A stretch of 64,000 bases of DNA from Bacteroidia bacterium. GTDB taxonomy: Bacteria > Bacteroidota > Bacteroidia > B-17B0 > Aurantibacillaceae. Where the stretch lies: positions 1-64,000 of the forward strand of contig JAEUTQ010000012.1 in the NCBI GenBank assembly GCA_016787445.1, written 5' to 3'. The notes under the pieces were generated by a model. The model was given only the letters and a program-made list of their open reading frames with translations. It was not told where the DNA came from and searched no databases. Numbering within the stretch: position 1 is the stretch's first letter; each line of letters begins with the position of its first letter. The translations under genes were made by a program, and so were the position numbers. Below, piece after piece: positions 11,867-61,767 of the stretch.

Positions 11867-12229
11867 TTATTCTACCACAGTTACAATAAACTTTTTCTGC
11901 TGAATAGTGTCTTGTTGTTGACGCTTGAAAAAATAAAGCGTATCAGTTCCTTTATTCTTTGCAAGGAAATTAAAATAAATGCCTTTTTCATTTCCATGCC
12001 AAACCGAATTAAGAGCTTCAACGGCTACAAATTGTTTCTGTGTAGCGTGCCAAAACGAAGTCTCATTGTGGTTTTCAGGAAGGATAACGCAGAATTTTTC
12101 TCCTTGTTTGATTTCATTTGATTGAGGGAAGGGGTTTTTTATTTCCTGAAAAGAACAAGCTTGTAAAATAAAAAGGAGAAAAAGCACAATGGCCTTTTCT
12201 CCTCTTAATTGTTTAAATTTATTCAGCAT
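11867..12229 (-). CDS. Small lipoprotein, possibly chagasin-like
   Basis: A 120-residue exported lipoprotein with signal peptide ending LFILQAC (Cys25). The mature part, with GEKFCVILPENHNETSFWHA, a central loop and YFNFLAKNKGTDTLYFFKR, is reminiscent of the chagasin (I42) cysteine-protease-inhibitor fold, where a strand-loop-strand pattern ends in a G-x-T-x-L-x-F segment. This is pattern resemblance only and the family's key loops are not all present. Its start overlaps the rny stop by one base (TAATG on the minus strand), so it is translationally coupled to RNase Y. Confidence 0.45.
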   Translation of the reverse strand: MLNKFKQLRGEKAIVLFLLFILQACSFQEIKNPFPQSNEIKQGEKFCVILPENHNETSFWHATQKQFVAVEALNSVWHGNEKGIYFNFLAKNKGTDTLYFFKRQQQDTIQQKKFIVTVVE

Positions 12230-13791
12230 TATTTCGCGTAAGAAGTTGCTCTTGTTTCACGGATCACAGTTACTTTTACCTGACCCGGATATGTCATCTC
12301 CGTTTGAATTTTCTGAGAAATATTAAATGCCAATTCTTCTGCTTTAGCATCGGTTACTTTTTCACTTGTAACAATAACACGTAATTCGCGACCGGCCTGA
12401 ATAGCATATGTTTTTTCTACACCATCGTAGGATAAAGCAAGTGCTTCCAGATCCTTTAAACGTTTCATGTATTGTTCCGCAATTTCGCGGCGGGCACCTG
12501 GACGGGCACCGCTAATAGCATCACACACCTGAATGATTGGTGAGTATAATGAAGTCATTTCAATTTCGTCGTGGTGAGCACCAATGGCATTGCAAACTTC
12601 CGCTTTCTCTTTATATTTCTCAGCGAGTTTCATACCAAGGATTGCGTGTGGTAATTCAGGCTCATCATCAGGTACTTTTCCAATATCATGTAATAAGCCC
12701 GCACGTTTTGCCACCTTAGGATTGAGTCCCATTTCGCTGGCCATGATAGCGCAAAGATTAGCTACCTCGCGTGAGTGCTGCAATAAATTTTGTCCGTAAG
12801 AAGAACGGTATTTCATACGTCCCACCATACGTATTAGTTCCGGATGTAATCCATGAATACCTAAGTCGATGCAAGTACGTTTACCGGTTTCAATGATTTC
12901 TTCTTCAATCATTTTTTTCGTTTTCTCAACTACTTCTTCAATACGAGCCGGGTGAATACGTCCGTCGCTTACTAATTGATGTAAAGCTAAACGGGCAATT
13001 TCACGACGGATAGAATCGAAGCAAGAAAGAGTAATAGCATCCGGCGTATCGTCCACAATAATCTCTACACCGGTTGCTGCTTCAAGGGCACGGATGTTAC
13101 GACCTTCACGTCCAATAATTCTACCCTTCATTTCATCACCTTCAATATGGAAAACAGTAACTGAATTCTCGATAGCCGTTTCGGTGGCAACACGCTGAAT
13201 GGATTGAATAACGATACGCTTCGCTTCTTTGTTAGCGGTCATTTTCGCTTCATCCATAATATCTTTAATGTAAGCCATAGCCTGTGTTTTTGCTTCAGCT
13301 TTTACACTTTCCACTAATTGAGCTTTGGCATCATCAGCTTTTAATCCGGAAACTTTCTCAAGCATTTCAACTTGTCGGCGGTGTAATTTTTCCACCTCTT
13401 CGTTACGTTGCTTATAAAGTTCGATTTGCTGACTAGCCTGATTCTTTAAATTTTCGAGCTCCTTATCTTTGCGGTTATTCTCTTCAATCTTTTTCGAAAG
13501 CTCGTTTTCCTTTTGCTTTAACTTGTTTTCTGTTTGCGAAATCTGGTGATTTTTTTCTTGCACCGACTTATCATGTTCAGATTTAAGTTGAAGGAATTTT
13601 TCTTTGGCTTGTAAAATTTTCTCTTGTTTAAGAGCTTCCGTTTTTACTTCAGCTTCCTTGATAATGTTTTCCTTTTCCTTTTGCGCGGTTCGGTTAAGAC
13701 GCGAGTTGGCAATTATAAAGCCAACAATCAGCCCGAGGATAAGCCCCCCGGCAATAATGCTGATTTCTATAATGTTTAAGTCTAAATTCAT
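12229..13791 (-). CDS. rny: Ribonuclease Y
   Basis: An endoribonuclease that starts mRNA decay at the membrane. Domains in order: an N-terminal transmembrane helix (residues 9-29), a long coiled coil (about 35-200), a KH RNA-binding domain with [11 protein letters not shown] (223-233), and an HD domain with catalytic His368-Asp369 in GLLHDIGK. The 520-residue length is typical. It lies 135 bases downstream of zapA on the same strand, separated by a terminator-like hairpin (13858-13900), so part of its expression may depend on read-through. The downstream lipoprotein overlaps its stop. Confidence 0.96.
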
Positions 13792-13926: not shown

Positions 13927-14235
13927 TTATTCGTCTATTTTTTTAATGCTATCGAGATGTTCTTGTAACATCATCTCCACATCAATTAATAGTATCTTAA
14001 AATGGCTTAATTCTTTTTCGGCTTCTTCAGCTTTCTGATAATATTGAGAAACAAGCTGCAACATTACCATCGCCAAAACATCCTTTTTATCCTTAACTGC
14101 ATAAGTTTTTTCAAACTCATCAATTTTAGTATTTATTAAACTAACAACCCTTACTACGTTTTCCTCGTCTTCGGCTTTGATTTTCAGGGGATATAATCCC
14201 CCTGCAATTTCTACTTTTATACTAACCTCATTCAT
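13927..14235 (-). CDS. zapA: Cell division protein ZapA
   Basis: ZapA bundles FtsZ filaments at midcell. The 102-residue protein has the family layout: an N-terminal beta domain (SIKVEIAGGLYPLKIKAEDEE) followed by helices ending in a coiled coil (AEEAEKELSHFKILLIDVE). It lies 24 bases downstream of the giant coiled-coil gene and upstream of rny, an arrangement of zapA and rny that is common in Bacteroidota as I recall. Its direct partner in E. coli is the coiled-coil protein ZapB, which makes the adjacent coiled-coil gene of interest. Confidence 0.9.
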   Translation of the reverse strand: MNEVSIKVEIAGGLYPLKIKAEDEENVVRVVSLINTKIDEFEKTYAVKDKKDVLAMVMLQLVSQYYQKAEEAEKELSHFKILLIDVEMMLQEHLDSIKKIDE

Positions 14236-14259: not shown

Positions 14260-16599
14260 TTAAGCACTTAGTAAAGCAATACACTTATCAATTTCACGCA
14301 CCAATTCGTTAATTTGTTTCTTCATGGAACTGCTGTCACTCAAGTTACCATTGGAAGACTTTGCTAATATAACATTCTTCCTGTGATTATTCAAATCGTT
14401 AACATCAATATTCTGACTGTCAACATGTTGAGAAATACCACTAATCACATCATTCATTTTTAACAACTGTTCAGCCATTTGTTCTTTCTCGTTCAACAAA
14501 GTTAAGCGCTCATCATTTAACGCATCAATTTGTTTGAATAAGCGATCGATATATTCATCCTGATCGTTTGAACTAGTAGTTGAAGAAGTCATTTCCGCCA
14601 TTCTACTCTCGTAATCTGAAATTTTAGAATTTAGATTTTCAATTTCAGATTTAAAGTTACCTACCGTTGAGTTTAACTCTTCTAGTTGAAAAATTAAGCT
14701 TTCATTTTCTGCACTGATAGTGTTGTACTTGTTTTCCCAGTTTGAAATTTCTTCAGCTGATGATGAAGCACTTTCTAATTTAGCTGCAAGTTCAATGTTC
14801 TCAGATTTTACTTGTGTTAACTCATTACTTAATGCGGCATTGTTAGCCGATAAAGTAGTGATTTCATAGTTTTTAGAATTTAATACTTCTTTTAATTCTG
14901 AAACACGTGATTCAATTCCGGAATTCGATTCTTCTAATTCTGCTTTTAATAAGGCCAATTCAGATTCTTGAGCTTCCAGCTTTTCTTGGGCTGAATCAAT
15001 TTCTGAGATAAGGCTAGTGTTTTCGTTTAATAATTTCTGGAACTCAATATCCTTATTTTGTAATTGTTGTTGCGTAATGATTTCCAATTCGTTTTTGAAA
15101 CTCTCAAACGATGCTTCTTTTTCACTCCATTCAGAAATATTCTTGCTTAATTCATTATTTAATCTTTCGATTTCAGACTTAGTATATCCTAATTCTGCCG
15201 ATTTTGATGAAACACTTGAATTTAATTCGGCAATCGTATTGTTTTTAATTTCTAAATCCGACTCTAATGCACTGATTGTTTCTGTTAAACGAGATAGTTC
15301 AGCCGTTAAATTTTGAACTTGCTCACTTTGCGATTGTAATTGTGAGGCTTTGTAAGTTTCAAATTCAGAAGTTAAACTGTTATACTTTTCAGTTTGAGCA
15401 GTAATTTCAGAGTTTTTGATTTCAATTTCACGGGCTAAGTCTTCAATTTTTGTGTTTTGTCCATCAATATGGTGAATCATTTCACGGATTTTCTCCTTGA
15501 AATGCTCATTCTCAATCACAAACTTGTTTAACTCTTCTGTTAATTTACTGTTTTGCTCATTTGAATGTATTAATGTGTTAGAAAGTTTGCTTTCATATTC
15601 AGCTCTTACCGATTCAACATCCGAGCTGGCTAGAGACTTTAATTCATTAATCTGACTTTCAAAACCGGCTTTTAAAGACTCCATATTACTTTCGGCCAAA
15701 GCATTTAATTCTGCAATGCGCCCTTCGTAAGTTGAAATCAATTCTTGTTCCTTATTAGTAAACTCAGAAGTTAAACTTTCAATAGTACTGTTATATTCTG
15801 ATGTTAAAGTGTTCTTTTGATTTTCGATAGCCGACTCTAATTCAGAAATTCTGGATTCATACGAAGAAGTACTTTCGTTTAAAGAAGCTGTTAAGCTGTC
15901 TTCCAAACGTTTTAATTTACCTTCGTACTCGTTTGTTAAGGTTTCAATTTGTGAAGAAGTTGAACTTGATGTTTCAGAAATGCGACTTTCGTAGTTAGAC
16001 TTGATAGTCTCAATTTGCTGGAAGTACTCACTTCTTAAGTTACTGATTTCTGATTCGTGCTTTGAAGTTAATTCAATCTCTTTATCTAATAAAAGCTGGC
16101 TAAGCTCATTAATCTTTAATTCATATTCATCACGTATGCCAATTTCGCGGTAGTGGCCATTAGAACGTAATTCATCAATTTGTGTCGTTAATTCTTTTTT
16201 AACCGCATCCAATTCTTCATACGAAGCTGTTTTTACCGATTCAATACGCGCTTCATACTCGGCAGCGATACTATCCATTTGAGATTTTAAAGACTCAATT
16301 TCGCTTAAGTAATTATTAATCTCTTCTTGTTTGGCTTGTAATTGCTCTTTAATACTTGCGCGTAGTTCTTTAAATGCAGCTAATTCAGCTTTATAATTCT
16401 GATTATCGCGATCAAGCACTTCCATCTTCGTATTTAATACATCAATGGTTACTTGTAAACGTTTACAGTCTTCGTCGCGTTCAATCAGTTGATTACGGTA
16501 ATCACTTAAAGAACGTTTCAAATCATTATACTCTTTTCTAAGAGCTAAATCATTATCGAAAACTTGTTTTAAATCGGATTTTAAATTTTCTGCATTCAT
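14260..16599 (-). CDS. Giant coiled-coil protein with 22-residue repeats
   Basis: A 779-residue protein that is almost wholly alpha-helical coiled coil, with no signal peptide or membrane segment. Residues 115-334 are ten exact 22-residue repeats: starts at 115, 137, 159, 181, 203, 225, 247, 269, 291 and 313, each beginning (Y/F/H/L)-x-x-x-(I/L), with a partial copy at 335. Hydrophobic positions recur every 11 residues (for example 207, 218, 229, 240, 251). The rest is more ordinary, Ser/Glu-rich coiled coil. The C-terminus (INELVREIDKCIALLSA) looks like the short coiled-coil proteins found before zapA in other Bacteroidota, from memory. It is probably co-transcribed with zapA. A division scaffold role is inferred from position only. 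Confidence 0.75.
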   Translation of the reverse strand: MNAENLKSDLKQVFDNDLALRKEYNDLKRSLSDYRNQLIERDEDCKRLQVTIDVLNTKMEVLDRDNQNYKAELAAFKELRASIKEQLQAKQEEINNYLSEIESLKSQMDSIAAEYEARIESVKTASYEELDAVKKELTTQIDELRSNGHYREIGIRDEYELKINELSQLLLDKEIELTSKHESEISNLRSEYFQQIETIKSNYESRISETSSSTSSQIETLTNEYEGKLKRLEDSLTASLNESTSSYESRISELESAIENQKNTLTSEYNSTIESLTSEFTNKEQELISTYEGRIAELNALAESNMESLKAGFESQINELKSLASSDVESVRAEYESKLSNTLIHSNEQNSKLTEELNKFVIENEHFKEKIREMIHHIDGQNTKIEDLAREIEIKNSEITAQTEKYNSLTSEFETYKASQLQSQSEQVQNLTAELSRLTETISALESDLEIKNNTIAELNSSVSSKSAELGYTKSEIERLNNELSKNISEWSEKEASFESFKNELEIITQQQLQNKDIEFQKLLNENTSLISEIDSAQEKLEAQESELALLKAELEESNSGIESRVSELKEVLNSKNYEITTLSANNAALSNELTQVKSENIELAAKLESASSSAEEISNWENKYNTISAENESLIFQLEELNSTVGNFKSEIENLNSKISDYESRMAEMTSSTTSSNDQDEYIDRLFKQIDALNDERLTLLNEKEQMAEQLLKMNDVISGISQHVDSQNIDVNDLNNHRKNVILAKSSNGNLSDSSSMKKQINELVREIDKCIALLSA

Positions 16600-57456: not shown

Positions 57457-57717
57457 TATTAATATCGCAAAGCAAGTTAATTTTATCAATAAATGCCAGA
57501 TGAAACAGTAAATAATCTGCAAGGGGGCAGCACCTAACTAAAATATTTATTTTCAGTCAAATAGTTCAGGATTTTACCTCAAATTCTGTTCATAAGCTGT
57601 TAATTATAGCCGACTGGCCATTCTATTGAGTGAAACATAGGCTTGCCTTATTTGAAAATGGGGTAATTCCCTCCCTATTTCACTAAATTTATTACAATGA
57701 TTGCAAAAATCCATCCC

Positions 57718-60700
57718 ATGAAGAATCTTATTAAATTTTCGGCCATTGCATTTGCTATGTTAACTGTTAACTTGGTAAATGCTCAAATAAAAAATGAACC
57801 GCTTTGGGGTACGCCATGTAAAGAATGTTTAGAGCCTGTAGGGAATTCTCAAAAGGGTTCTCCTGCGTCAGTTCAAAACGGAAACGCAACGATTGCTACA
57901 AGTTATACAACTACAGCATGCGGATTAAATTTTACGACAGCGAGTGTTCGATTGCATGCCCGTTCGTTTGGTGCAGTTACACCTGCAACAGGTCTTGCTC
58001 AACCAGCCACAATGGCTATTTCAGGGATGCCAGCCTGTTTCCAAGTTTTAAAAGCTTTTTTATATATAGGTGGTTCCGGTAACGGTAGCGCTTTTAATGT
58101 GAATTTTACTAATCCGGCAGCAACTGCAAGTACAGTTCCTGCTACTATGATAGGAAGTGACGTAGATAAATGTTGGAGTTTCCCAGGAACTTATAATTAT
58201 CGTTGCGATGTTACAGCATTGATTTCAGGGAATGGTAATTATGTTATTAGTGGAGTTCCTGTAAATGCAACAGCTAAAACTATGGATATGGATGGCGCAA
58301 CTTTATTTATTATTTATTCTGATCCAAATCAAACCTTTACCGGAAGTATTATGATCGGTGATGGTTGTATGGTAATGAAAGGCGGAACTAAAACAGCAAA
58401 CCTTACAGGTTTTAATGTTTGTGGACCTACATCTTTGACAACAAATTTTATGGCGGTTACTGATTTGCAAAAAATCGCAGCTACTCCTGTTTACCTTAAC
58501 TCAGCAACTGCGAATTTCACACAGCCTGTGGCTAGTCAGCAAGTGTATGACTACATTCAACAACCTGGTGCTCCAGCCGTAGCAGGACAAACATCCGCAA
58601 CTTACGGTGTTCAAAATTCAAGTGACTGTTGGAATTTAGTTTTCGCAGGTATGTATTGGAGAACTGCTTGTAACGTTTGTACAATTTCTAACCTTACTGT
58701 TTCGGCTGTTACTTCTTCTTCTTGTTCGGCCGGTTCTGCAACTGCTAATGTATCCGGTGGTACAGCTCCATATTCTTACACTTGGAGTCCTGCAGGTGGA
58801 AACGCACAAAGTATTACCAATATGCCTTCAGGTACATATACTGTTAATGTGAAGGATGCTACAGGTTGTAAAACAGGAACAGCTACAGTGTTGGTAAATG
58901 CAGCAGCTGGACCTACAATTACAGCTAACGCAGGCACTATTTGCGCAGGTAGTTCAGTGAACTTAACTGCTAACGGTGCTTCTACCTATACGTGGAGCCC
59001 TGGTACCGGATTGAATACAACTAACGGTCCGGCTGTAACGGCAAATCCTGCTGCTACTACAGTTTATTCTATCAGTGGAACGAATGCTTTAGGTTGTGTT
59101 GCCACCATTACAACACAGGTAACCGTAAATCCAATGCCTGTACCGGTTATTAATAGTAATAGCCCCGTTTGTTTAAATGCACCATTGAATTTAACTTCTG
59201 GTGGAGGAACAACTTATGCATGGAGCGGACCAAACGCTTTCACTTCAACATTACAAAATCCTACAGTTGCAGCCGCTACAACAGCTGATGCCGGAGTGTA
59301 TACAGTGACTGTAACTTCATTAGGATGTTCATCAACAGCTACAACTAACGTTGCGGTATTAACGCCTTCAACAACGGCTACTAATACCGGAGCGTATTGT
59401 GCCGGTGCAACTATTCAATTAAATGGTGGCGCAGCAACATCTTATAGCTGGACGGGCCCGGGTGGATTTACATCTAACTTACAAAACCCAACTATTGCTG
59501 CTTCAACAACTGCGATGAGTGGAACTTATAATTTATTAGTTTCAATTGGTTCATGTACTGCAGCAGCTTCAACTAACGTTGTTGTTAATGCGTTGCCGGT
59601 TCCAAACGCAATTAGTAATAGTCCGGTTTGTGCGAACGATCAAATTACATTCACAGGTTCAGGTGGAACAACGTATACATGGACTGGCCCTGCTTATAAC
59701 TCTAATCAACAAAATCCGGTAATAGCTTCTTCAACTGCTGCAAATGCCGGTACATATACATTAACGGTAACCGATGCTAATAGCTGTGTAAACTCAACAA
59801 CAGTAAATGTTGTTGTAAATCCGCTTCCTTTTATAACGGTTAACAGCCCTGTAACTTGTTTGAATACTTCATTTACTTTATCTGCAACTGGTGGCTCAAC
59901 ATATGCATGGAGTGGTCCGGGTGGATTTACTTCTAACCAGCAAAATGCGGTTCTTACCAATGCAGCGGCATCTATGTCTGGTGTTTATACTGTTACCGTA
60001 ACTACTGCGAATAACTGTGTGTCAACCGCCACAACTAACGCGCAAGTATTACCATTGCCTAATCCTCAAATCAACAGCAACTCACCTGTTTGTGTGGGTA
60101 ACGCGTTAATTTTAACAGGAAGTGGTGGTGCAACATTTGCTTGGAGCGGCCCGAATAGTTTTGTAAGTGCTCAACAAAATCCAACAATAGCAAACGTAAC
60201 ATTAGCTGAAGCCGGCGTTTATACTTTATTAGTTTCTTCCGGAACTTGTACTGCAAGTACTACTGCTACAATTGTTATAAATCCATTACCAACTCCGCAA
60301 ATCGTAGTAAATACTCCGGTTTGTGTTGGACAAACTTTAAACTTTAGTGGTAGTGGTGGTGTAACCTATAGCTGGAACGGTCCGGGCTTTATTAATAACA
60401 CGCAAAACCCTTCAATTCCTGCCGCCACAATGTTTAATAATGGAACATTTGTGTTAACAGTTACCGATGCAAATAATTGTACTAATTCAACCACTCAGAA
60501 TGTGGTGGTAAATCCTTTACCAAATGTAAATGCAACCGGCGCAACGGTGTGTGAAAACGCTAATGCAACTTTAAGCGCAGGCGGTGGAGTTACTTATTCA
60601 TGGAGTGGCCCCAATGGATTTACTTCAAATAGTCAAAATCCAATGCTGTCAAATGCACAATTGAATGTTTCAGGTCAATACACAGTTTTAGTGACGGATG

Positions 60701-61767
60701 CAAATACTTGTACGAATACAGCGGTAGCAACAATTATTGTAAATCCTGCTCCTGTGGCAACAATTAATAACAATAGCCCGATTTGCGTAAACAGCATGTT
60801 AAGCTTAAGTGGTTCGGGTGGAGTTAGCTATAGCTGGACAGGACCGAATGGATTTATTTCTACTTCTCAAAATCCAAACTTCAATGCAAGTTCAACAGCT
60901 TACTCAGGAAATTATGTGCTCACAATTACAGATGCTAATGGATGTACTGCTTCTGCAACAACTGCAGCAACTATTAATCCGATTCCGAGTGTAGCAATTA
61001 ATGCGGTTCCTAATAGAGGATGTGCGCCTCTCTGTACTTCATTTAACTTAAATACAAGTCCTGGTATTCAAACCTACAATTGGAATTTAGGAAATGGAAT
61101 TACCGGAAATAGTGCAACACAACAAACATGTTATGGAACAACAGGAGTTTATACTGTGAACGTTGTTGTATCAGATGCCATTGGTTGTACCAATAGCGCT
61201 TCTTACACCGTTGAAGTATTCCCTCAACCGGTTGCTGACTTTAACCATGCGCCAATTAAACCAATTATTAATGTGGATCCTGAAGTAACATTTACAGATG
61301 CTTCACATGGAGATTCGATTGTTAAATGGCAATGGTATTTCATGAATAATGCACAGTATACATCGACACAACAAAATCCAACATTCATGTATTCTGATCC
61401 GGGTACTTATGCGGTGGCCTTGGTTGTTACAAGTGATAAAGGTTGTATCGATACATTAGTGAGAATCGTTGAGGTAGGTGAAGACTTCGGAATTTACGTT
61501 CCAAATGCATTTACACCTAATGCCGATGGATTAAATGATGTGTTCCAGCCAAAAGGATTTGGCATTGTAAAATATCAATTACAAATCTTTGATCGTTGGG
61601 GTGAGAGAGTGTTTGAGACCAAGGAGTTTGAAAAGGGATGGGATGGAAAATTTGTTGGTCGCGGTGATAATATTTGCGAGCAAGGAACTTATACCTGGTT
61701 GATAAATGCAGTGAGTGTATTTGGAAAAGCTCACGAATTAAAAGGTCACGTAACCCTCATAAAATAA
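57718..61767 (+). CDS. Giant secreted Ig-like repeat protein with type B T9SS domain
   Basis: A 1349-residue exported protein from the ATG at 57718 (a start 7 codons earlier is possible, but this one begins the signal peptide MKNLIKFSAIAF...). The N-terminal 330 residues form a beta-rich head. A SprB-like repeat (TVNVKDATGC) lies at about 58700-58910. Then about nine Ig-like repeats of 72-78 residues follow (about 58915-60990), each with the pattern NSPVC, (W)SGPNGF, QNP, GxYTxxVTDxNxC and NPLP. Two PKD-like repeats come before the CHU_C/gliding-associated C-terminal domain (IYVPNAFTPNADGLNDVF, FDRWGERVFE). It is a likely surface adhesin or matrix protein exported by T9SS. Confidence 0.9.
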   Translation: MKNLIKFSAIAFAMLTVNLVNAQIKNEPLWGTPCKECLEPVGNSQKGSPASVQNGNATIATSYTTTACGLNFTTASVRLHARSFGAVTPATGLAQPATMAISGMPACFQVLKAFLYIGGSGNGSAFNVNFTNPAATASTVPATMIGSDVDKCWSFPGTYNYRCDVTALISGNGNYVISGVPVNATAKTMDMDGATLFIIYSDPNQTFTGSIMIGDGCMVMKGGTKTANLTGFNVCGPTSLTTNFMAVTDLQKIAATPVYLNSATANFTQPVASQQVYDYIQQPGAPAVAGQTSATYGVQNSSDCWNLVFAGMYWRTACNVCTISNLTVSAVTSSSCSAGSATANVSGGTAPYSYTWSPAGGNAQSITNMPSGTYTVNVKDATGCKTGTATVLVNAAAGPTITANAGTICAGSSVNLTANGASTYTWSPGTGLNTTNGPAVTANPAATTVYSISGTNALGCVATITTQVTVNPMPVPVINSNSPVCLNAPLNLTSGGGTTYAWSGPNAFTSTLQNPTVAAATTADAGVYTVTVTSLGCSSTATTNVAVLTPSTTATNTGAYCAGATIQLNGGAATSYSWTGPGGFTSNLQNPTIAASTTAMSGTYNLLVSIGSCTAAASTNVVVNALPVPNAISNSPVCANDQITFTGSGGTTYTWTGPAYNSNQQNPVIASSTAANAGTYTLTVTDANSCVNSTTVNVVVNPLPFITVNSPVTCLNTSFTLSATGGSTYAWSGPGGFTSNQQNAVLTNAAASMSGVYTVTVTTANNCVSTATTNAQVLPLPNPQINSNSPVCVGNALILTGSGGATFAWSGPNSFVSAQQNPTIANVTLAEAGVYTLLVSSGTCTASTTATIVINPLPTPQIVVNTPVCVGQTLNFSGSGGVTYSWNGPGFINNTQNPSIPAATMFNNGTFVLTVTDANNCTNSTTQNVVVNPLPNVNATGATVCENANATLSAGGGVTYSWSGPNGFTSNSQNPMLSNAQLNVSGQYTVLVTDANTCTNTAVATIIVNPAPVATINNNSPICVNSMLSLSGSGGVSYSWTGPNGFISTSQNPNFNASSTAYSGNYVLTITDANGCTASATTAATINPIPSVAINAVPNRGCAPLCTSFNLNTSPGIQTYNWNLGNGITGNSATQQTCYGTTGVYTVNVVVSDAIGCTNSASYTVEVFPQPVADFNHAPIKPIINVDPEVTFTDASHGDSIVKWQWYFMNNAQYTSTQQNPTFMYSDPGTYAVALVVTSDKGCIDTLVRIVEVGEDFGIYVPNAFTPNADGLNDVFQPKGFGIVKYQLQIFDRWGERVFETKEFEKGWDGKFVGRGDNICEQGTYTWLINAVSVFGKAHELKGHVTLIK
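58915..60990 (+). repeat. Tandem coding repeats of about 220-235 bp
   Basis: The Ig-like repeats of the giant protein form a tandem array at the DNA level. Recurring blocks include tggagtggcccgaat-like segments and caaaatccaac-like segments. Copies differ at many positions, so they are old or diversifying. Such arrays may misassemble with short reads. Confidence 0.8.

Follow-up and report, generated by a model that had tools for sequence, protein, structure and literature searches.

A stretch of 64,000 nucleotides from a Bacteroidia bacterium (positions 1 to 64,000 of contig JAEUTQ010000012.1, assembly GCA_016787445.1, forward strand; hereafter the window) contains, immediately upstream of zapA, a gene for a coiled-coil protein of 779 residues. 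This protein is probably the Bacteroidia counterpart of ZapB and ZauP, lengthened to a strut of ~60-135 nm whose C-terminus is tied to the Z-ring. Binding to ZapA, a partner at the far end and function as a ruler are inferred. What is new here is likely a coiled-coil ZapA partner of a new family, which in one order has taken on an unusual, quantised length. Z-ring organisation in Bacteroidota is hardly described in open-licence papers, and in the open-licence full-text literature we found no description of a Bacteroidota ZapA partner, of a family ending in a REIDKCIALL motif, or of a long ZapA partner built of hendecads (11-residue units).

The gene, the parts of its product and zapA lie in the window as follows.

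14260-16599, minus strand: gene of the coiled-coil protein, long form of the Bacteroidia family upstream of zapA, 779 residues (open reading frame and translation; 57 distinct complete relatives)
16510-16599, minus strand: residues 1-30, conserved N-terminal end MxxxxxKxxLxxxxxxDxxxRxxxxxxxR (alignment A5)
16288-16599, minus strand: residues 1-104, N-terminal heptad coiled coil (hydrophobic period 3.494, power 13.1)
15565-16287, minus strand: residues 105-345, hendecad coiled coil, the length-variable block (period 3.666; length steps of 11)
14605-15564, minus strand: residues 346-665, heptad or near-heptad coiled coil (periods 3.540, 3.544 and 3.478; helix 428-665 in the structural model)
14263-14550, minus strand: residues 684-779, C-terminal module homologous to a whole protein of ~97 residues (hhalign; profile A2)
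14263-14331, minus strand: residues 757-779, terminal motif helix KKQINELVREIDKCIALLSA, predicted to be separate after a hinge (motif conservation; helix 757-778)
13927-14235, minus strand: zapA, 24 nucleotides downstream of the coiled-coil gene (PF05164, 54.6 bits; modelled fold matches ZapA)

A short family upstream of zapA and its long form

ZapA was found in 111 of the 119 Bacteroidia genomes sampled. We fetched 60 of these 111 zapA loci, three of which belong to the window's order. At 49 of the 57 loci outside the order, a frame bearing the motif profile ends no more than 250 nucleotides upstream of zapA; the profile was itself built from 41 of these loci, making this a uniform count and no independent test. 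One of the eight loci that miss a short partner is a contig end. The open frames span 92-148 residues (one has 211) and are usually ~97 residues long. Their products end in a REIDKCIALL-like motif, in which E, D and C are near invariant among 43 short proteins; the member at locus L080, for example, ends ...KLKINEMVREIDKCIALINK. At four loci (L053, L055, L059 and L083), which have overlapping frames or a larger gap, the short partner upstream of zapA was recovered by profile search.

A profile of the last 45 residues of the short family (A2) was made from 41 of 42 motif-bearing tails, none from the window's order. Its sole match in the window's genome is the C-terminus of the window protein (E 4.1e-14), which ends in the motif INELVREIDKCIALL and has the near-invariant E, D and C. 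In a phylum-wide sample A2 matched 26 of 118 genomes, and among the matches listed all belong to class Bacteroidia. When the short family (A1) was aligned by hhalign with the C-terminal 100 residues of the long proteins (A6), the probability was 99.4 (E 2.1e-21) over 93 columns; a control with the coiled-coil N-terminus reached 65 (E 6e-5) over 52 columns. As this profile-profile alignment spans the whole short family, it shows by homology that the entire small protein is represented by the window protein's last ~96 residues, and that the long protein is a small family member at its C-terminus with a large added N-terminal coiled coil. The window's order has gained 300-800 residues of coiled coil on the small protein, and at 779 residues the window protein lies well beyond the size range of the short family. 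A partner of intermediate size also occurs: at locus L094 (genome G054, family f14) it has 202 residues, with a near-duplicated stretch of ~50 residues, and seems to have arisen by a separate, more modest extension of the short form.

Among known families, the short proteins come closest to the Pfam model of ZapB, PF06005, which is the Pfam family matched by most members (11 of 43 at E <=0.01, best 5.9e-8). Four of these scores lie between 15.0 and 20.0 bits, under the cut-off of 31.5 bits, and PF06005 passed its cut-off in none of 21 genomes, the window's own included. For the window protein (P0001) it is absent from the best 25 of 28 Pfam families, and from the families listed for the C-terminal 100 residues; we therefore reject membership of Pfam ZapB. 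Among the Pfam and NCBIfam matches listed, no model for the short family was seen, and a plasmid search with one short protein gave no match. Against solved structures, the C-terminal module found weak coiled-coil matches alone (E 0.0027 or worse). Where ATG16, SMC and other Pfam and NCBIfam models match the long protein, the matches were judged to be generic to coiled coils, although ATG16 does exceed its Pfam cut-off (38.2 versus 33.7 bits). The original prediction of a ZapB-like protein consequently stands in kind but not in family membership: the window protein shares homology over its C-terminal ~96 residues with a small protein that adjoins zapA, and the motif profile is found in none of 12 genomes that lack zapA.

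Hendecad periodicity and stepwise changes in length

The window's order was sampled in 87 genomes, all of one family and all from uncultured Bacteroidia. The coiled-coil protein has a match in 81 of them, including all 62 of good quality, and zapA was found in 79. Scanning genome contigs turned up 18 relatives with BLAST identities of 39-63%; zapA follows directly downstream in 17, and the remaining contig stops at its edge. Among the 71 loci of the order examined, the coiled-coil gene lies 4-33 nucleotides upstream of zapA in 69, and the two without a zapA reading frame are L018 (contig end) and L140 (zapA lost). The original prediction had staked itself on conservation beside zapA in relatives, and that conservation is kept. 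After one protein open at its 5′ end (L017) was dropped, 68 proteins were left, 57 of them distinct and complete, with lengths of 415-910 residues. Across much of the order, conservation is strong in residues 1-100 and in blocks of the C-terminal half, and the C-terminal module ranks with the most conserved parts. At the other end, M1, K7, L10, D17, R21 and R29 are each kept in at least 90% of N-termini (alignment A5, n=31). A profile of this end matched 10 of 99 genomes: three matches are strong and all of this family, while we judge the seven others (E 1.7e-7 or weaker) to be generic coiled coils. On the basis of this search we reject the idea that the N-terminal end exists elsewhere as a clear separate gene.

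The protein had first been described as carrying ten exact 22-residue repeats. Residues 115-334 do split without gaps into ten units, each beginning (Y/F/H/L)xxx(I/L), and a partial eleventh runs to residue 345. However, the copies are not identical and share between 1 and 13 of their 22 residues. Mean pairwise identity is 5.64 of 22 (25.7%), compared with a mean of 2.12 (9.6%) and a maximum of 2.91 (13.2%) in 5000 shuffles. Detection of tandem repeats in the DNA was blank at the block, ruling out identical or recent DNA repeats there. The claim that hydrophobic residues recur every 11 positions was confirmed: in residues 105-345 the hydrophobic period is 3.666, or 11/3, with a power of 37.7, where 99% of shuffles fall below 7.6. 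The block begins near residue 105, about one hendecad earlier than claimed. Best periods elsewhere are 3.494 (residues 1-104), 3.540 (346-440), 3.544 (440-560) and 3.478 (560-700), and the segments flanking the block are heptads or near-heptads. The unusual geometry first proposed thus applies to one third of the rod, the remainder being heptad.

The repeating unit is 11 residues and not 22, because periods of 11, 22, 33 and 44 are all prominent, because aromatic residues alternate weakly among relatives, and because length differences among relatives include both odd and even multiples of 11. Where position 1 is aromatic in the relatives, the frequency of an aromatic at that position is 0.53 in the next hendecad and 0.65 in the next but one, compared with 0.62 overall. 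Among 38 proteins in register, position 1 is aromatic or histidine (Tyr, Phe, His) in 62%, position 5 is hydrophobic (Ile, Leu) in 76%, and position 8 is hydrophobic (Leu) in 92%. In hendecad coiled coils, the core position facing the bundle axis requires a small residue (Ala) or a higher oligomer (PMC9858780). Given this requirement, Tyr, Phe and His at a core position hint at a bundle of more than two chains, or at a dimer whose core is unusual.

Measured from anchor to anchor, the hendecad blocks of all 38 proteins differ by exact multiples of 11, odd and even, and take 11 distinct lengths from 224 to 345 residues; 19 of the 57 proteins lack a strict anchor and were left out. By alignment, 44 of 47 proteins fall into one class modulo 11, the exceptions being L051, L152 and L144, and the 10 of the 57 that lack a block of this length were left out. 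A tree of ZapA and the remaining parts of the protein (45 rows, with good support for 19 of 41 inner branches) requires the number of hendecads to have changed on at least 21 separate occasions among 43 proteins, and 54 hendecads are counted stepwise. L051 and L152 were left out of this count, and the tree was built without L130 and L144, which miss the N-terminal anchor. These sequence comparisons show that the hendecad block has grown and shrunk by whole units of 11 residues. It is absent from genera g85, g87 and g89, whose proteins have 415-561 residues; in g83 it is weak and located elsewhere. Anchor-to-anchor lengths in the C-terminal half deviate from the reference by -25, -7, +11, +18, +40 and +42, which could be sums of 7, 11 and 18 and would also keep the phase of a coiled coil. 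A second C-terminal stretch, from anchor to end, is less regular, with differences of -83 to +19.

Such changes need not serve any function. If the C-terminal 96 residues performed the ancestral job of a ZapA partner, the added coiled coil might be a passive leftover that drifts in length by recombination among degenerate 33-nucleotide repeats, with no length-dependent function. Repeat duplication would naturally yield multiples of 11, and the lengths vary widely (415-910 residues) without relation to genome size. Nevertheless, we regard this explanation as highly unlikely: residues 1-100 and the blocks of the C-terminal half are strongly conserved in much of the order, helical phase was kept in at least 21 length changes, and the rod is retained even after zapA has been lost.

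Association with ZapA and its loss

Motif profile A2 matched 16 of 20 zapA-bearing genomes, compared with none of the 12 zapA-less ones. The 20 were chosen by hand, with low-scoring ZapA and unclear neighbours over-represented, and the four misses (G046, G058, G092 and G072) are the genomes with the four lowest-scoring ZapA matches among the 111. Of 13 genomes searched for FtsZ, 12 have it: the window's own and 11 of the 12 without zapA. Eight genomes of Bacteroidia have no ZapA match and all have FtsZ (G007, G013, G017, G024, G041, G068, G078 and G108); three of them belong to family f41, one being a single contig, and zapA loss in this family is therefore probably real.

Within the window's order, zapA is gone from genus g84 (G158 and G159), while FtsZ is present in both genomes. 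A ZapA profile search of the two g84 loci found nothing credible. The rod gene there stands directly before rny (L140, 1864-4047; L161, 1501-3519), and its products, of 672 and 727 residues, keep the hendecad block. Their terminal motif has decayed to VNELNTQLTTLFNEKLN and VNDLNTQLNQILNEKLS, and the stretch before it is kept (NLDAHRKSTIFA / NLDADRKNTIFA, matching DLNNHRKNVILA of the window protein). At the N-terminal end, the rods of these two zapA-less relatives have also lost ~13 residues from the start. Loss of ZapA is thus accompanied by decay of the end motifs, yet the rod serves some role without ZapA.

These data also bear on whether ZapA is the partner at all. The short family and the long form could act with the product of another neighbouring gene or with FtsZ directly, the linkage to zapA being an inherited operon order. 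Adjacency alone is weak evidence: the gene order pheT / zapA / rny is common in Bacteroidia, open reading frames of ~800 residues lie upstream at Bacteroidia zapA loci, and four zapA-bearing genomes have no detectable motif. Those four, however, carry the four lowest ZapA scores of the 111. Further, the motif is missing together with zapA in 12 of 12 genomes, 11 of which have FtsZ, and it decays alongside zapA loss while the gene stays in place. This is the explanation to which we give the least credence.

Predicted structure and proposed role

AlphaFold2, run with 49 sequences, predicts an almost wholly helical protein, with helices at residues 3-206, 218-417, 428-665, 684-723 and 757-778 (mean predicted local distance difference test score, pLDDT, 73; predicted template modelling score, pTM, 0.24). 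The breaks at 207-217 and 418-427 are probably spurious and due to a single chain folding back on itself, since the 11-residue register continues through the first of them. A read-through model of the tail and ZapA (38 sequences; pLDDT 79.9, pTM 0.36) has a tail helix, a break after model residue 63, a separate terminal helix and a good ZapA fold. Its ZapA part resembles E. coli and Klebsiella ZapA at Z 10.7-10.8, and a fold search outside that part returned nothing informative. A helix rises by 0.1485 nm per residue, so that the fully extended chain, computed from residue count, would measure 115.7 nm in the window species and 61.6-135.1 nm among relatives.

We propose that the C-terminal motif helix would tie the protein, directly or via oligomers, to ZapA and hence to the FtsZ ring, in the way that ZapB is tied in E. 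coli and ZauP in Caulobacter. The rod would reach inward and bear its conserved N-terminal end to a second structure, for example the nucleoid or a layer of the division machinery further in; alternatively, the N-termini of rods might meet other rods. Each added hendecad would make the rod ~1.6 nm longer with nearly no rotation between its ends, because hendecads should form a nearly untwisted bundle; they lie 0.03 residues per turn off the undistorted helix, and thus have little twist (PMC9858780). Evolution could in this way retune length while leaving the geometry of the ends intact. In its fullest form, the proposal is an adjustable strut, a rod with ZapA at the C-terminus and a second structure at the N-terminus, which sets the distance from the Z-ring and has been retuned at least 21 times in hendecads. 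We offer this version tentatively, and hold it to be possible rather than probable.

Several known systems provide points of comparison. ZapB of E. coli is a protein of ~81 residues that, like the window protein, is all coiled coil; ZapB works with ZapA, the window protein probably does so too, and it would likewise sit inside the Z-ring. The window protein differs in its conserved C-terminal REIDKCIALL motif, in its 779 residues, and in a genome that gave no match to MatP. E. coli has ZapB ~40 nm inside FtsZ and MatP ~30 nm further in (PMC4388696), and both ZapB-MatP and ZauP-ZapT join the Z-ring to the chromosome terminus (PMC12754632, PMC7188993, PMC7858052). The Caulobacter crescentus operon is named zauP-zapA in that gene order (PMC7858052), and the window has the same arrangement, with the coiled-coil gene first and then, after a gap of 24 nucleotides, zapA; this likeness is known from gene order. 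No counterpart of the window protein's long form or of its hendecads was seen in ZauP. PF13747, which we take to be the ZauP family model, had no match in the window's genome, but had none in any control genome either. The ~97-residue Bacteroidia family shares gene position and end-to-end homology with the C-terminal ~96 residues; the order's form differs in its added coiled coil, in most genera with a variable hendecad block.

FilP and Scy of Streptomyces are division-related hendecad rods in which heptads are expanded by hendecads (PMC9858780). They raise the alternative that the window protein is a self-assembling cytoskeletal filament, similar to crescentin or to FilP and Scy, which would polymerise along the cell or septum and whose link to ZapA through the C-terminal module is minor or regulatory. 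A long rod of mixed heptads and hendecads like theirs (PMC9858780), and the retention of this rod without zapA in one genus, would fit a filament, as would weak matches to Pfam Filament and NCBIfam SMC, which any coiled coil gives. Nevertheless, the C-terminal module that is linked to ZapA belongs to the most conserved parts and the gene remains adjoining zapA, unlike the situation in FilP and Scy. Ala is favoured in the dimer cores of FilP and Scy (PMC9858780), whereas Tyr, Phe and His occupy that core position in ~62% of cases in the window family. The window protein also has no DivIVA-like N-terminal motif: GYDxxEVD is absent from its translation, and no DivIVA family occurs among the best 25 of 28 Pfam families for it. 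We consider such a filament unlikely.

A ZapA-tethered strut must nonetheless be weighed against several observations that tell in the other direction. MatP (PF06303) was not found in the window's genome by a search that was positive in the E. coli control, and we reject it as the partner there. Absence of the motif together with zapA is partly trivial, because neighbouring genes are easily lost together, and the 12 zapA-less genomes come from few lineages. In g84 the rod survives the loss of zapA and thus has a role independent of it; because the N-terminal end decayed too, C-terminal decay is no clean single-cause result, and it represents one event in one genus. The model of tail and ZapA, with its pTM of 0.36, is uninformative on docking or relative placement. 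Hendecads are unnecessary for lengthening, since proteins of g85, g87 and g89 are long without the block, and multiples of 11 may stem from repeat duplication by unequal recombination rather than from selection on length. Finally, rod length is uncorrelated with genome size across 42 genomes picked by hand (rho 0.10, p 0.54), and we reject the notion that one follows the other.

The short family with its REIDKCIALL tail represents a likely class-wide ZapA partner that is open to knock-out in cultivable species. The order's rods of 415-910 residues, which in most genera differ by whole hendecads, form a natural series for probing how the distance from the Z-ring to an inner structure depends on rod length. 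They are also a clean natural case of hendecad-quantised coiled-coil evolution, with an aromatic core position where earlier examples favour Ala.

Downstream of zapA, the window continues with one further gene of the locus.

12229-13791, minus strand: rny (ribonuclease Y), downstream neighbour (open reading frame; presumably rny, named from its sequence)

Around the rod gene and zapA, promoter matches were no better than the shuffled level, and no terminator could be clearly placed between the two genes. Elsewhere in the window, positions 57697-61767 encode a protein of 1356 residues that carries numerous Ig-like repeats of the form SPVCxxxxLxLxGSGGxTYxWxGPNGFxSxxQNP and what we take to be a gliding-type C-terminal domain.

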